Shown one piece after another: positions 12,456 to 63,741 of a DNA stretch of 64,000 bases (positions are counted from its first letter, which is position 1; every line of letters begins with the position of its first letter). The notes below the pieces were generated by a model. That model was given only the letters and a program-made list of their open reading frames with translations. It did not search any database and was not told the origin of the DNA. A program made the position numbers and the translations under genes. The DNA comes from an uncultured Bradyrhizobium sp. (GTDB lineage: Bacteria; Pseudomonadota; Alphaproteobacteria; Rhizobiales; Xanthobacteraceae), in contig NZ_CAKZHY010000055.1 in NCBI RefSeq assembly GCF_936928535.1, positions 33,539 through 97,538 of the forward strand, read 5' to 3'.

Positions 12456-13457
12456 TTACGCGGCCTCGTCGGCGACGGTGGTATCGTCGCCATCGCTATC
12501 GTCGGTATCGCCCTCGGCATCGGCCTCACCCTCGGCGGCTTCCGCCTTGGCGTTGCGGCGCGGGCTCTTGGCGAGCTGGGCCTCGATTTCCTTGACCGCT
12601 TCGGTCTCGGTCGAGTGCTGCACCACTGCGATCTCGCGGGACAGGCGATCGAGCGCCGCTTCATAGAGCTGGCGCTCGCTGTAGGACTGCTCGGGCTGCG
12701 ATTCCGACCGGTAGAGGTCGCGCACGACTTCCGCGATCGCGACGATGTCGCCCGAATTGATCTTTGCTTCGTATTCCTGGGCACGGCGCGACCACATGGT
12801 GCGCTTGACGCGGGCACGGCCCTTGAGGGTCTCCAGCGCCTTCTTCACCAGCGCCGGCTCGGACAGCTTGCGCATGCCGACGTTGGCGACCTTGGCGGTC
12901 GGAACGCGCAGCGTCATCTTGTCCTTGATGAAATTGATGACGAACAGCTCGAGCTTCGCACCGGCGATCTCCTGCTCCTCGATGGCCAGGATCTGGCCGA
13001 CGCCGTGAGCGGGATAGACCACGAATTCGTTGGCCTTGAAGCCCTGACGCTGGGTCACAACTTTCTTTTCCTCGACCTTCGGCGCAGGTGCAGCGGCCTT
13101 CACGGCCGGCTTGGCAGCGGCAACGGGGGCCTTGGCAGGGGCGGCAGCAACAGGAGCCTTCGGAGCAACAGGCTTGGCAGCGGGAGCCTTGGCGACAGCA
13201 GGCTTGGCAGCAGCAGGCTTGGCAACGGTCGCTTTCGCGGCCGGTTTGGCAGTCTTGTTAGGCATTGCGCTTCTTTTGTTCTTCGAGGACTTTGCAGCCG
13301 GCGGCGCCTTGGCAGCGGCCCGACCCTTGGATGCGCTACGGCTGGCCGCGGCGACTTTTTTGGCCTCCTTATGGGAAGCCCTCGCTGAAGTACTCTTTTT
13401 ACGCGTTTTCTGTGACACAGCCTGCGCGCGGAAACTGCCACGCCCCTGTTTCGACAT
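12456..13457 (-). CDS. CarD family transcriptional regulator with long Lys/Ala/Pro-rich N-terminal tail
   Basis: The CarD-type RNA-polymerase-interacting domain spans about residues 140-300 (FKANEFVVYPAHGVGQILAIEEQ, then KLELFVINFIKDKMTLRVP). Such proteins bind the RNAP beta subunit and modulate initiation, including at rRNA promoters. It is preceded by about 130 residues of AKP/AAK repeats resembling histone H1 tails and followed by an acidic tail. The ORF opens at 13457, and an internal ATG at 13265 (MPNKTAKP) is an alternative start. The 64 extra residues contain 13 lysines, unusual for random GC-rich sequence, so I keep the long form. Confidence 0.85.
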   Translation of the reverse strand: MSKQGRGSFRAQAVSQKTRKKSTSARASHKEAKKVAAASRSASKGRAAAKAPPAAKSSKNKRSAMPNKTAKPAAKATVAKPAAAKPAVAKAPAAKPVAPKAPVAAAPAKAPVAAAKPAVKAAAPAPKVEEKKVVTQRQGFKANEFVVYPAHGVGQILAIEEQEIAGAKLELFVINFIKDKMTLRVPTAKVANVGMRKLSEPALVKKALETLKGRARVKRTMWSRRAQEYEAKINSGDIVAIAEVVRDLYRSESQPEQSYSERQLYEAALDRLSREIAVVQHSTETEAVKEIEAQLAKSPRRNAKAEAAEGEADAEGDTDDSDGDDTTVADEAA

Positions 13458-13615: not shown

Positions 13616-13954
13616 TTAGTCGCCGGAGCCAGGGTTCGGAGAAAAATATTTCTCGAACTTCCCTTCCATCCCGTCGAACTCCTTGGCGTCTTCGGGTGAT
13701 TCTTTCTTCTGGGTGATGTTCGGCCAGCTCTTGGCGTACTGGGTGTTCACTTCCAGCCACTTTTCCAGCCCCGGTTCCGTGTCCGGCTTGATGGCGTCGG
13801 CGGGGCATTCCGGCTCGCACACGCCGCAATCGATGCACTCGTCCGGGTGGATGACGAGCATGTTGTCACCCTCATAGAAACAATCGACCGGGCAGACCTC
13901 GACGCAGTCGGTGTACTTGCACTTGATGCAGTTTTCAGTGACGACGTAAGTCAT
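13616..13954 (-). CDS. fdxA: FdxA family 7Fe ferredoxin
   Basis: This 112-aa protein has the 3Fe-4S and 4Fe-4S ligand set: [18 protein letters not shown] in the first 25 residues and [12 protein letters not shown] soon after. The C-terminal extension ([16 protein letters not shown]) is typical of FdxA-type ferredoxins. GGAGCG precedes the ATG. It is a cytosolic low-potential electron carrier and its partner here is unknown. It lies between the S4-domain gene and carD, all on the minus strand; this gene neighbourhood is common in the group. Confidence 0.95.
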
Positions 13955-14090: not shown

Positions 14091-14318
14091 TTACTCTTTG
14101 CGCTCGCCGAACTCCTCGTAGAGCAAGCGTGCTGAGGCTGCATCGCCGCGGCGCTCGTTGAAGCCGGTCACCTTCAGCACGCGCACGGTGCGATCGAGCG
14201 CGACGGTGATGACGTCGCCGAGCTTGATCGCATGCCCGGGCGATTTCTCGCGCGTGCCGTTGATGCGGACATGGCCGGACTCGACGAGCTCAGCCGCTGA
14301 GGTCCGCGCCTTCACCAC
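14091..14318 (-). CDS. S4-domain RNA-binding protein (Hsp15/HslR-like), start codon apparently lost
   Basis: The ORF track gives 75 aa from GTG 14318. The same frame continues upstream as TTERQRLDKWLWHARV, which is the conserved first part of the S4 domain (RLDKWLWxAR), up to an in-frame TGA at 14394-14396. No ATG, GTG or TTG occurs in frame between that stop and 14318. An AGAAGGAA resembling a ribosome site lies at 14374-14381, just before where an ATG would be expected. Hsp15-like proteins bind rRNA of stalled 50S subunits. A dispersed repeat ends exactly here (14381-14431). The product may be truncated, or initiation may be non-standard. Confidence 0.75.
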   Translation of the reverse strand: MVKARTSAAELVESGHVRINGTREKSPGHAIKLGDVITVALDRTVRVLKVTGFNERRGDAASARLLYEEFGERKE

Positions 14319-14380
14319 CCGCGCGTGCCACAGCCATTTGTCGAGGCGCTGCCGCTCGGTGGTCGTGGCTCTATTCCTTC

Positions 14381-14431
14381 TGACGCGTTTTCTTCACGCG
14401 AACCGCTCCGCACTTCGCTTGAAAACGCTAT
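14381..14431. repeat. Dispersed 50-bp inverted-end repeat (copy 1)
   Basis: The sequence TGACGCGTTTTCTTCACGCG...CGCTTGAAAACGCT has inverted GCGTTTTC / GAAAACGC ends. It recurs with few changes at 47744-47794. It fills the gap between the helicase stop and the S4-domain gene. Confidence 0.85.
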
Positions 14432-14432
14432 G

Positions 14433-17400
14433 CTACTCCTTGCGCCCCGAAAGCTGCTCTTTCAGCGCGGCGAGCTTGGCGAAAGGCGAGTTCGGGTCGG
14501 CCGGACGATCGCGCTCGCGCGGGTTCGCACTCGAAGCGTAGGGACGCAGCGACGGACCGGACTCGCGATCGCGGCGGTCGCGGCCCTTGTCGCGGTCACG
14601 GCCCCTGTTGTCGCGGCCCTTGTCACGATCGCCGCCGAACTTCTTGTTGTCGCGGTTGCGATCGCGATCCTTGTCGCGGTCCTTGCCTTGTTCTCGACCT
14701 TGGAAGTTGCGATTGCGGTCGTCGCGGCCTTCCTGGCGCGGCGCGCCCTCGCCACCTTCGCGCGGCTTGCGGAAGTCTCTGCCGCCGTCACGACGATGAC
14801 CGCCGTGACGATGACGCTCACCACGCTTCTCGCCATCCGCTGATTGCGCGGCCTCTCCTTCGGCCGGCGCGGCGCCCGCTTCGGCACCCGCCTGCTGCGG
14901 GCGCTGATTGTGGTGACGCTGATGGCGATGACGCTCGTGACGCGGCTTGCGATCCTCGTGACGGCCGCCGGGACGCCAGACTTCGACGAGCTCGGGCTCG
15001 GCGGGCGTGGCCGCAGCTTCAGCCGGCGCAGCCTCGGGCGCAGCGGCATCGGGAGATGCGGCGGCTTCAGTTGCCGCGGTCTCGGCGGGAGCGGCTTCTG
15101 CGGCCGCCTCTGCCGGTGCAGCGGTCTCTTCCGCCGGCGGCGCGATGCCGGGGGCATCTTCCGGCGTGACCGGCGCTTCGGGTGAGGCTTCGAGCGCCGG
15201 CACTTCGTGCGCGGGCTCGTCGTGCTGCTCCATGCCGGGGGCGTCTTCAACGGTGACGGCTTCCGGAGCGGCTTCAATCGCGGCGTCAACGGGTGCAGCC
15301 GCCTCTTCGGTCGCAGGCGCTTCCGCAGATGGCTCGGCAGCCGGCATTTCCGTAGCAACAGGCGCAGCCGGCTTCGGCGGCAGCGGCGCGCGCTTCTCCA
15401 TGCGATAGCCGAGCGCGCGCAGCACCGAGGCAAAGTCCTCGCCGGCGGAGCCTGTGAGCGAGGTCATCGCCTGCGTCACCACGAAGCCGCGGCCGTCGAA
15501 TGCACCACCGGGCTTTTCGCCGGGCGAATTCTCGCGCCAGGCCAGCGCCGGACGGATCAGATCCGCAAGGCGCTCCAGGATGTCGACGCGCACGGCGCGC
15601 TCGCCGGCCTGCTTGTAGCCGAGCACGCGATAGGCATCGCGCGGCAAGCTCTTGTCGACCGGGAACGAGGTGCGGCCGGATGAGGCCAGATGCTGCGCGC
15701 CCGACAGCGCCGACAGATCGACATTGTCCTGCTTCAGCGCCCACAGCAGCGCGGCGAGCGCACGCGCAGCGGGCTTCAGGATGCCGGGGAAATAGATGTG
15801 ATAGGCGCCGAAGCGGACGCCGTATTTGCGCAGCGTCGCGCGCGAGGGCTGATCGAGATCCTTCAGCTCGTTGGCGATCTTCGGCCGCTCGAGCACGCCG
15901 AGCGCCTCGACCAGCTGATAGGCGATGCCGCGGGCAATGCCGGTGACGTCCTCGGCCTTGGACAGCTCGAACATCGGCCCGAGCAGCTTTTCGATATGCG
16001 TCTTGAGCCAGAGGTCGAGCCGCGCCTGCACTTTGTCGCGCGGGCCGCCGGTCAGCCGCTCATCCGAGATGATGCGGATGCGCGGATGCAGCGCCTCATC
16101 GGCGGCGGTCAGCCGCGCGACCGCATCGCCGGTCCAGCGGATGGTGCCATCCGAGGTCAGCACGAACTGGTCGTCCGGCGCGTTGCCGAGTTTTTCGGCG
16201 CGCGTATTGATCTCGCCGGCGAGCACCGCTTGCGCGGCAGCCTGCAAGGCTTTCGCATCGGAGCCGGCTTCCGCCGCATCCGGTGCAAAGGTGAAGCCAT
16301 CGAGGCGGCCGATGACATGGCCTTCGACGATCACTTCGCCGGTCTTGCCGATTTCCGTATTCAAGCTCGTGTTCTCCCGCAGGCGGCGCATCAATACACT
16401 GGTCCGGCGATCAACGAAACGCTCAGTCAAGCGTTCGTGGAGCGCATCCGATAATTTATTTTCGACCTCCCGCGCGGTCCCCTGCCAGCGATCGGGGTCT
16501 TTCAGCCAGTCCGGGCGGTTGGCGACGAAGGTCCAGGTGCGGATCTGCGCGATTCTGGCCGAGAGCGTGTCGATGTCGCCATCGATGCGGTCGGCCTGGT
16601 CGATTTGGGCCGCGAACCAGGAATCGGGGATGCAGCCCTTCCGCATCAGGAAGCCGTAGAGCGTCGTCACCAGTTCGGCATGGGCGGCCGGCGACAGTTT
16701 GCGGTAATCCGGGACCTGGCAGGTCTCCCAGAGCCGCTCCACCGCGGCCTTGCCGTGCGCGATATCGCGCACCTCGGCGTCGCGGGCGGCATGGTCGAGC
16801 ACGCGCATGTCTTCGGCGATCGGGGCGCGCGTCAGCGTCTCGTGGCCCGGGGCGAGGTTCAGCGAGACCTGGAGCGCGCCGAGGGAAGAGAAATCCAGTT
16901 TCGAGTTGCGCCATTGCAGCATCTTCACGGGATCGAAGATGTGGTTCTGCAGCGCGTTCACGAGCTCGGGCTCGAACGGGCCGCAGCGGCCGGTGGTGCC
17001 GAAGGTGCCGTTGCGCGTGGCGCGGCCCGCACGGCCGGCGACTTGCGCGAACTCGGCCGGCGTCAGCCTTCGGAACTGATAGCCGTCGAACTTGCGGTCG
17101 GAGGCGAACGCGACGTGGTCGACGTCGAGATTGAGGCCCATGCCGACGGCGTCGGTGGCGACGAGATAATCGACGTCGCCGTTCTGGAACATCTCGACCT
17201 GCGCGTTGCGCGTGCGGGGCGACAGCGAGCCCAGCACCACGGCAGCACCGCCATGCTGGCGCTTGATCAGCTCGGCGATGGCGTAGACCTCGTCGGCGGA
17301 GAAGGCGACGATCGCGGTGCGGCGCGGCTGGCGCGTGATCTTGCGGTCGCCGGCGAATTCCAGCTGCGACAGGCGCGGCCGTGTGATCATGGAGACGCCC

Positions 17401-24115: not shown

Positions 24116-24241
24116 GACGGACCTCCGTGATGATCTCGGGAGGTTAGGCCAGTTTGGGCCGGTGCGAAAGCTAAGGGGAGTTACGGATGCGTGAGGTGGG
24201 TGATGAGGGAAGGAAGCGAAGGCCTCGCATCACTCTCCGCT

Positions 24242-24411
24242 GTCATCCCGGACAAGCGAAGCGCAGATCCGGGATCCAAACCCCAGGGAGCAGTTTATGG
24301 CGCGAAGTGGCAACTCCGAGTGTTCGCAAAACTATTGCTGCGGCGTATGGCGACGAGCGCAAGCGCTCGCGCTGGGGTCCCGGATCTGCGCTTGCGCTTG
24401 TCCGGGACGAC
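24242..24411. repeat. Dispersed inverted-end element, GTCRTCCCGG type (copy 1)
   Basis: The left end GTCATCCCGGACAAGCG and right end CGCTTGTCCGGGACGAC form inverted repeats of about 35 bp with small gaps. The right half (ATTGCTGCGGCGTATGG) is shared with the copies at 26468 and 34132. It fills most of the gap before the Old Yellow Enzyme stop. Confidence 0.88.
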
Positions 24412-24456
24412 ACCGTTGGTGGGGCACCCGCCGTCGCACTCAATGTGCAGCTGCCC

Positions 24457-26467: not shown

Positions 26468-26599
26468 GTCGTCCCGGCGAACGCCGGGACCCATACGCCG
26501 CAGCAGTGGTTGTCGCGCGATATGGTCATTGCCTGTCTTCGCCAAACTCTTGCTCCGGCGTATGGGTCCCGGATCTGCGCTTCGCTTGTCCGGGACGAC
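26468..26599. repeat. Dispersed inverted-end element, GTCRTCCCGG type (copy 2)
   Basis: It runs from GTCGTCCCGGCGAACGCCGGGAC to TTGTCCGGGACGAC. Its core includes GGTCATTGCCTGTCTTCGCC, which is also present in the copy at 34132-34273 in the same orientation. Confidence 0.9.
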
Positions 26600-26625
26600 G
26601 GCGGGGGTCGGCGGGACAGCTAGAG

Positions 26626-34131: not shown

Positions 34132-34273
34132 GTCGTCCCGGCGAAGGCCGGGACCCATACGCCGCAGCAGCCGTTTTTGCGTGAGATGGTCATTGCCTGT
34201 CTTCGCCAAACTATTGCTGCGGCGTATGGGTCCCGGATCTGCGCTCCGCTTCGCTACGCTTATCCGGGACGAC
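34132..34273. repeat. Dispersed inverted-end element, GTCRTCCCGG type (copy 3)
   Basis: It runs from GTCGTCCCGGCGAAGGCCGGGAC to TATCCGGGACGAC and shares long blocks with the copy at 26468-26599, in the same orientation. It lies between two convergent gene ends. Confidence 0.9.
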
Positions 34274-34308
34274 ACCGGGAGTTTGGCTACAACCGTGGCA
34301 AGAGGCTC

Positions 34309-47726: not shown

Positions 47727-47743
47727 GCGATCATTTCTTGTTT

Positions 47744-47794
47744 TGACGCGTTTTCTTCACGCGAACCGGGATCCACTTCGCTCGAAAACGCTTT
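47744..47794. repeat. Dispersed 50-bp inverted-end repeat (copy 2)
   Basis: TGACGCGTTTTCTTCACGCG...CACTTCGCTCGAAAACGCT matches the copy at 14381-14431. It sits between the amidase stop and the LivH-like start. Confidence 0.88.
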
Positions 47795-47825
47795 GCTGTC
47801 CCGCCCGCCAGGATCAATTCCCCGC

Positions 47826-59233: not shown

Positions 59234-59247
59234 CGATGCTCTTGCAT

Positions 59248-59341
59248 CGTCATTCCGGGGCGCGCGATAGCGCGAACCCGGAATCTCGCGCCACAACATC
59301 TGGATTCCGCGTTCGGTCCTGCGGACCGCCCCGGAATGACG
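59248..59341. repeat. Dispersed inverted-end element, CGTCATTCCGGGGCG type (copy 1)
   Basis: CGTCATTCCGGGGCGCGCGA at the left and CCGCCCCGGAATGACGG at the right form inverted repeats, with an inner AACCCGGAATCTCGCG / TGGATTCCGCGTTCG pairing. It lies between the convergent mutT and methyltransferase genes. Confidence 0.88.
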
Positions 59342-62754: not shown

Positions 62755-62831
62755 GTCATCCCGGATGGTCCGAAGGACCAGATCCGGGATCTCGAGATTC
62801 CGGGTTCGCCCTGCGAGCGCCCCGGAATGAC
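62755..62831. repeat. Dispersed inverted-end element, GTCATYCCGG type (copy 2)
   Basis: It begins GTCATCCCGGATGGTCC and ends GCGCCCCGGAATGAC. It shares its right end with the element at 59248-59341. It lies between the convergent DUF1178 and EamA genes. Confidence 0.85.
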
Positions 62832-62841
62832 GACGAAACAG

Positions 62842-63741
62842 CTACACGCCCACCAGCAGCGCCACGCCGACCACGATCAGCACGATCCCAACAATCTCGC
62901 GCGGTGCGATCGGCTGCTTGAACGAGTAATACGCCACGGCTTGCGCGAACAGCACCTCGATCAAGGCGAGCGTGCGGACATTGGCGGCGGCCGTCAGCGC
63001 GAACGCCAGGAACCAGAACTGCGAGGCGAAGGCGCCCATGAAGCCCGCAAGCAGCGACGGCCGCCATAATCCCAGGATCGATTGAAGTATCTGTGGCGCA
63101 CGCCAGAGCAGATAAACCGTCAGGATCAGCGTCTGCACGAACAGGCCGAGCACCAGCGTGAACGACGATGCCGTCACGAAGGACACGTTCGGCACGGTGA
63201 TGATGGCGCCGCGGAAGCCGACCGCCGACAGCGCGAACGCCGCTGCGGCGACGAGACCCGTGATGGTCGGCTTCAGCTCCGCAAAACTCTTCTCACCACC
63301 CGGACGCAATGCGGTGACAACGACGCCAACGGTCGCGATCACGATCGCCAGCACCCTCAGCCAGGTCAGGTGATCGCCCAGGAAGACAAAACCGAAGATC
63401 GCGGTTTGGATCGCCTCGGTTTTCAAATAGGCCGTCGTCACCACGAAAGAGCGGTCGTTCATGGCGAGCAGCATCAGGCCGGTCGCGATGATCTGGCTGA
63501 GCGCGCCCAGCAGCAACCACGGCCAGAACATCGATGGCGGCATGCCGATATGGTCGCCGGTCGCAACCAGCACGGCGCCCAGGAACAGCAGCGAGAACGG
63601 GAAGCCGAACAGGAAGCGGATATTGGTCGCGCCCCAGGTCCCCAGCGGCTTGGTCAGCGACCGCTGCATCGCATTGCGCGCGACCTGGCCGAGCGCGGCG
63701 ATGACGGTGAAGGGAATCCAGAGGCTGGTGACGGTGAACAT
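62842..63741 (-). CDS. EamA/DMT family transporter
   Basis: The protein has 299 aa from ATG 63741 (MFTVTSLWIPFTVIAALGQ); the 320-aa ORF start adds a hydrophilic stretch that is probably leader. Ten hydrophobic helices in two EamA repeats are visible, including GDHLTWLRVLAIVIATVGVVVTAL and ALIEVLFAQAVAYYSFKQPIAPREIVGIVLIVVGVALLVGV. The substrate is unknown. No strong ribosome site was seen, so the start is uncertain. Confidence 0.87.
   Translation of the reverse strand: MFTVTSLWIPFTVIAALGQVARNAMQRSLTKPLGTWGATNIRFLFGFPFSLLFLGAVLVATGDHIGMPPSMFWPWLLLGALSQIIATGLMLLAMNDRSFVVTTAYLKTEAIQTAIFGFVFLGDHLTWLRVLAIVIATVGVVVTALRPGGEKSFAELKPTITGLVAAAAFALSAVGFRGAIITVPNVSFVTASSFTLVLGLFVQTLILTVYLLWRAPQILQSILGLWRPSLLAGFMGAFASQFWFLAFALTAAANVRTLALIEVLFAQAVAYYSFKQPIAPREIVGIVLIVVGVALLVGV

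Follow-up and report, generated by a model that had tools for sequence, protein, structure and literature searches.

Gene finders usually accept only ATG, GTG and TTG as start codons. A known IF3-type start outside this set is ATT (AUU), infC being autoregulated. In E. coli, ACG initiates very poorly, and to our knowledge it is a codon on which bacteria do not rely; the literature that we searched yielded no relevant report of ACG starts in bacteria. In Streptomyces, sigR has a GTC start codon and is repressed by IF3 (PMC5472188). Among S4-domain factors, RqcP and Hsp15 are defined by an N-terminal Arg and Asp, and Ala at Arg2 abolishes the function of RqcP (PMC11317155). For B. diazoefficiens USDA 110, a published study gives 4090 proteins as detected and 178 N-termini as changed (PMC4842269).

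Here we describe an S4-domain gene of the Hsp15/HslR type in a stretch of 64,000 nucleotides from an uncultured Bradyrhizobium sp. (the window). The comparison of related sequences suggests that this gene is very probably intact and translated from an ACG codon at 14364-14366.

The S4-domain locus and its surroundings

The features of the locus are as follows, from the downstream to the upstream side.

12456..13457, minus strand: downstream gene of a CarD-type regulator (Pfam CarD_C, 87.8 bits)
13616..13954, minus strand: downstream ferredoxin gene fdxA (NF045490, 172 bits)
14091..14366, minus strand: S4-domain (Hsp15/HslR-type) gene; read from ACG it gives (M)TTERQRLDKWLWHARVVK..., 91 codons and a stop
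14316..14318, minus strand: first in-frame conventional start, GTG (an internal Val codon), use of which would delete RLDKWLWHAR
14364..14366, minus strand: proposed start codon ACG, in 134/134 clade genomes with a Shine-Dalgarno (SD) sequence at 6-10 nt
14375..14379, minus strand: SD sequence AAGGA, with an 8-nt spacer to ACG; the AAGGA-8nt-ACG module also occurs in other repeat-bearing relatives
14378..14434, minus strand: palindromic dispersed repeat of 57 bp, forming a hairpin of -20.8 kcal/mol (z -2.5), which separates the S4 gene from the stop codon of the helicase
14394..14396, minus strand: in-frame TGA inside the repeat, separated from ACG by nine codons
14433..17861, minus strand: upstream gene of a Suv3-type helicase, with the C-terminal end ...RKE-TAG
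14436..14441, minus strand: AAGGAG formed by the last Lys-Glu codons of the helicase, the SD sequence of the ACG start (typically at 7 nt) in repeat-free relatives

The minus-strand order is thus helicase, repeat, S4 gene, fdxA and CarD. Translation of 14091-14438 on this strand gives ...*RKRVRRNRATTTERQRLDKWLWHARVV..., and the S4 frame holds no ATG, GTG or TTG from the in-frame TGA to the S4 core. After the TGA it reads AGA AAA CGC GTC AGA AGG AAT AGA GCC ACG ACC ACC GAG CGG CAG CGC CTC GAC AAA TGG. The translation therefore confirms the preliminary description, which had reported a conserved N-terminus in frame and preceded by no such codon after a TGA. The sequence that it had noted in the expected place is present as AGAAGGAA, and the 50-bp repeat that it had seen ending there corresponds to the 57-bp element, of which a second copy (86%) lies at 47741-47797.

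The S4 gene product matches Pfam S4 with 48.2 bits, and its nearest solved structures are those of E. coli Hsp15 (3bbu/1dm9, E about 1e-13). Its score against the NCBIfam Hsp15 equivalog model is 58.6 bits, short of the cut-off of 148, and hence we name it Hsp15-type and not an Hsp15 equivalog. The R-x-D motif at the N-terminus of the protein holds the Arg and Asp that define RqcP/Hsp15; both residues are invariant across the 102 tabulated genomes of the main clade, where the motif reads RLD or RID and once RVD.

The repeat has the form GCGTTTTC-aRGCGAAGTG-...-CGGTTCGCGTGAAGAAAACGCGTCAAAAC, and its core has 11 genomic copies at no more than two mismatches. In the window's genome it puts about 66 nt between the helicase stop and ACG, and a second AAGGA precedes the ACG. 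We considered a target-site duplication, seeing that AAGGAnTAG stands on both sides of the repeat (L086), but the second of these may derive from the tail of the repeat itself, which reads TCAAAACRAGAAT in other copies. Other repeats are also found in the window. Inverted copies at 59238-59303 and 62778-62842 (CGAGATTCCGGGTTCG) resemble the published Br-REP1/Br-REP2 elements (PMC5082802), and a second dispersed family (CCCGGATCTGCGCTTCGCTTGTCCGGGACGAC) forms three clusters (24237-24438, 26468-26611 and 34132-34300), with one pair of 120 nt at 92%. Moreover, a large inverted repeat with ACCCTCCCCTGGAGGGGGAGGGT motifs (22975-23100/23575-23700) has arms of 126 nt that are 88% complementary and 474 nt apart.

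Distribution and conservation of the ACG codon

An S4 protein match was found in 198/199 sampled congeneric genomes, and the 30 nearest ones show the typical context CGCAAGGAGTGATCCC-ACG-ACC-GAG-CGG-CAG, without NTG. We read 157 loci and then extended the census by pattern to the whole genus (272 genomes). The ACG pattern (ACG in frame, then one to four Thr-type codons) matched 136 genomes, or 134 after removal of two that were out of frame (G446 and G163), and the NTG pattern (NTG directly before GAN and the remaining conserved N-terminus) matched 118. The 20 unmatched genomes were resolved singly: one (G416) has the main-clade ACG, two have TTG, eleven are of the photosynthetic type, three have ACG, and three are without an ortholog. 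The census accordingly comprises 135 genomes with the main-clade ACG, 120 with NTG, 11 with the ACG of the photosynthetic clade, 3 further ACG genomes and 3 in which no ortholog was found. As read from these genomes, roughly half of the Bradyrhizobium species lack a normal start codon for the S4 gene. An intermediate form, with NTG and one NCN codon before GAR, occurs in 0/272 genomes. Named records with ACG include B. japonicum, diazoefficiens, yuanmingense, liaoningense, betae, vignae and others, while TTG is found in jicamae, lablabi, valentinum, retamae, pachyrhizi, Tardiphaga and Rhodopseudomonas. The non-ACG Bradyrhizobium and the other genera start at TTG, rarely at GTG or ATG.

A tree was inferred from FdxA, CarD, the helicase and the S4 core, with the start codons excluded. 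A single branch sets off the main ACG clade (SH-aLRT 99), and another the group that we take to be photosynthetic from named members such as SSBR45G (SH-aLRT 100); the two are sisters (SH-aLRT 95). Three further genomes (L247+L249 and L251) carry ACG in a similar setting, exactly where TTG stands in others, and fall apart from the ACG clades, on weakly supported branches. On this tree, ACG versus NTG needs three changes. The 11 genomes of the photosynthetic-type group read AAGGACAACGCCN-ACG-TCC-GAC, with an 8-nt spacer and a different N-terminal extension. One of them, L248, is the sole member with an in-frame ATG, a few codons upstream (ATG ACA ACG CCG ACG, where its sisters have GG ACA ACG); this ATG could be a natural gain or the last remnant of a normal start.

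In each of the 134 main-clade genomes read base by base, ACG stands 6-10 nt after AAGGA(G) or a near variant of it, a count of related genomes and not of independent events. Three arrangements prevail, namely AAGGAG-7 in 91, AAGGA-8 in 17 and AAGGAG-6 in 12, the rest being other variants within the same range. Because the start was assigned to whichever ACG comes first in the Thr-type run, this test is not blind; the SD spacing serves as an independent check. No in-frame NTG occurs back to the stop in 131/134 genomes, and in the remaining 3 the nearest in-frame GTG lies at least 21 codons upstream of the RLD codon. In 16 genomes an in-frame stop stands one or two codons before ACG, for instance in L068, which reads AAG-GAG-TAG-CCT-ACG-ACC-GAG. 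The near-cognates of AUG that these 16 offer between the stop and the internal GTG are ACG, CTG/ATC-type codons further in, where the S4 helix is encoded, and a second ACG wherever the Thr run has one, and only the first ACG has an SD sequence at the right distance.

The codons on either side of ACG are variable while ACG itself is constant. The preceding codon takes nine forms in 102 genomes, and the following one (102 genomes, 72 haplotypes) is ACC in 73, ACG in 22, AGC in 3, TCC in 2, ACA in 1 and GCG in 1, thus varying also non-synonymously. An invariant third base is found in only 1/36 four-fold degenerate codons of the S4 gene.

The preliminary description had allowed for a loss of the start through mutation or insertion of the repeat, and the comparison with relatives that it proposed speaks against such a loss in this strain. 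In the window the gene lacks NTG and the repeat adjoins the site, as would be expected if a mutation, the insertion or a sequencing error had removed the start of a dying gene. However, the same state is shared by 134 genomes, most of them repeat-free, and the S4 reading frame is under purifying selection; the absence of NTG is therefore common to the clade and not a lesion of the strain, and loss in the strain, assembly error included, is hardly credible. The repeat is absent from the helicase-S4 junction in 98/122 parsed ACG genomes and present just upstream in only about 24, and hence it is not the cause of the missing NTG. It also lies between the two genes in some TTG-start genomes.

Probable initiation at ACG and alternative starts

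The weak ACG codon is accompanied by a strong SD sequence at the usual distance, as predicted from base pairing. The predicted SD duplex has a median of -8.4 kcal/mol in the ACG clade versus -3.4 in same-genus NTG genomes, kinship being ignored in this comparison. The terminal helicase codons are the SD-forming AAG-GAG in 96/98 main-clade genomes without the insert versus 0/27 insert-free NTG congeners, all 27 of which have AAG-GAA/GAC/GAT (or other).

Translation might instead begin at the internal GTG, leaving the codons upstream untranslated. This GTG is the first conventional start, and every genome checked has GTG for one or both of the two Val codons; however, GTG-GTG is about equally common in TTG-start relatives, and no SD sequence is seen ahead of the GTG in the window. 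From the Thr run to the internal GTG the codons change almost only synonymously, which indicates that this stretch is coding. A start at the GTG would moreover remove the conserved RLDKWLWHAR and with it both residues that define RqcP/Hsp15, including the Arg required in RqcP (PMC11317155). We regard this start as very improbable.

Slightly less probable still is a fusion of the S4 protein to the helicase by frameshifting or stop readthrough. The two genes are adjacent on one strand, and the helicase stop falls in the S4 frame in some genomes (TAG-CCT-ACG in L068), but the frame relation is not conserved, the spacer being mostly 6, 7 or 8 nt. In repeat-bearing genomes such as that of the window, a fusion would have to pass both the helicase stop and the in-frame TGA within the repeat, and it would meet the stop at most two codons before ACG in the 16 genomes mentioned above.

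An invariant codon that a single C-to-U change would turn into AUG, and that is found in more than one lineage, would also suit editing of the mRNA from ACG to AUG, as in plant organelles. We know of no C-to-U editing of mRNA in bacteria, and near-cognate initiation is the simpler reading, so that editing, too, appears very unlikely.

Initiation at ACG is favoured by the lack of a usable NTG, the invariance of ACG at a nearly fixed distance from the SD sequence, the purifying selection on the N-terminus, the stronger SD sequence and the single clade in the tree. Of the possibilities raised in the preliminary description, non-standard initiation is thus the one that gains support. The AAGGA(G) at 6-10 nt would set ACG as the start, and the initiator tRNA would presumably place fMet there. 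The helicase stop codon is typically 4 nt before ACG in repeat-free genomes, and ribosomes leaving the helicase gene may help the start by reinitiation.

Initiation at ACG would be expected to be weak and repressed by IF3, as with infC (ATT) and sigR (GTC). In the window's genome, the start of infC (L302, G000:C145:34953-35162) is not NTG but ATT, preceded by TTTGGAGAACCACCC; usual IF3 discrimination is therefore likely present, and the ACG start should be IF3-repressed.

A special initiator tRNA for ACG was considered and rejected, since the 46 tRNA genes found include only one of the initiator type (anticodon CAT) and an ordinary Thr-CGT. In the former (L298, G000:C170:130403-130476, minus strand), A29-U41 replaces the first of the three anticodon-stem G-C pairs (TCAGGCTCATAACCTGA). 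An initiator tRNA pattern left open at both positions matched 138/199 genomes of the order, and A29-U41 is present in all among the matches listed; this pair is hence order-wide among these matches and does not explain the ACG clade.

Possible meaning and comparison with known systems

Even with ACG as the start, its meaning can be read in two ways. It has close to an even chance of being only tolerated drift: a start that is weak, lies in a gene of low expression and carries no regulatory meaning. The start of the relatives is already weak (TTG) and the strong SD sequence compensates; however, none of the 134 genomes shows a reversion to NTG, even though a single transition would give ATG, and more than one lineage acquired or retained ACG. 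More tentatively, ACG may be a regulatory start kept by selection, through which a ribosome-rescue-type factor would be translated only weakly and under the control of IF3 or the state of the ribosome, an arrangement maintained in about 135-149 Bradyrhizobium species and attained by more than one lineage. If so, we know of no earlier case in which a chromosomal gene of a bacterium has a conserved ACG start.

Following the rules of gene finders, the S4 protein of ACG genomes is likely to be annotated without its essential N-terminus, or missed. With a clade-wide ACG that extends to a culturable model such as B. diazoefficiens, one can ask directly if bacteria retain near-cognate starts whose mismatch lies in the middle position, and if such starts are used for control, as in infC and sigR.

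With the Hsp15 (HslR)/RqcP ribosome rescue factors, the Bradyrhizobium protein shares the S4 domain and the RLDKWLW N-terminus; it is shorter than Hsp15 (about 90 versus 133 aa), and the likeness is one of sequence. Like infC, the S4 gene is a translation-related gene with a conserved near-cognate start, but the mismatch is at the third position in AUU and at the second in ACG, and for Hsp15 we know of no feedback. The resemblance to sigR of Streptomyces lies in a conserved gene whose real start, outside ATG, GTG and TTG, escapes annotation rules, with operon genes close by. The S4 gene differs from sigR in having ACG instead of GTC, in encoding an Hsp15-type S4 factor, in belonging to another phylum and in that repression by IF3 would here be expected by analogy.
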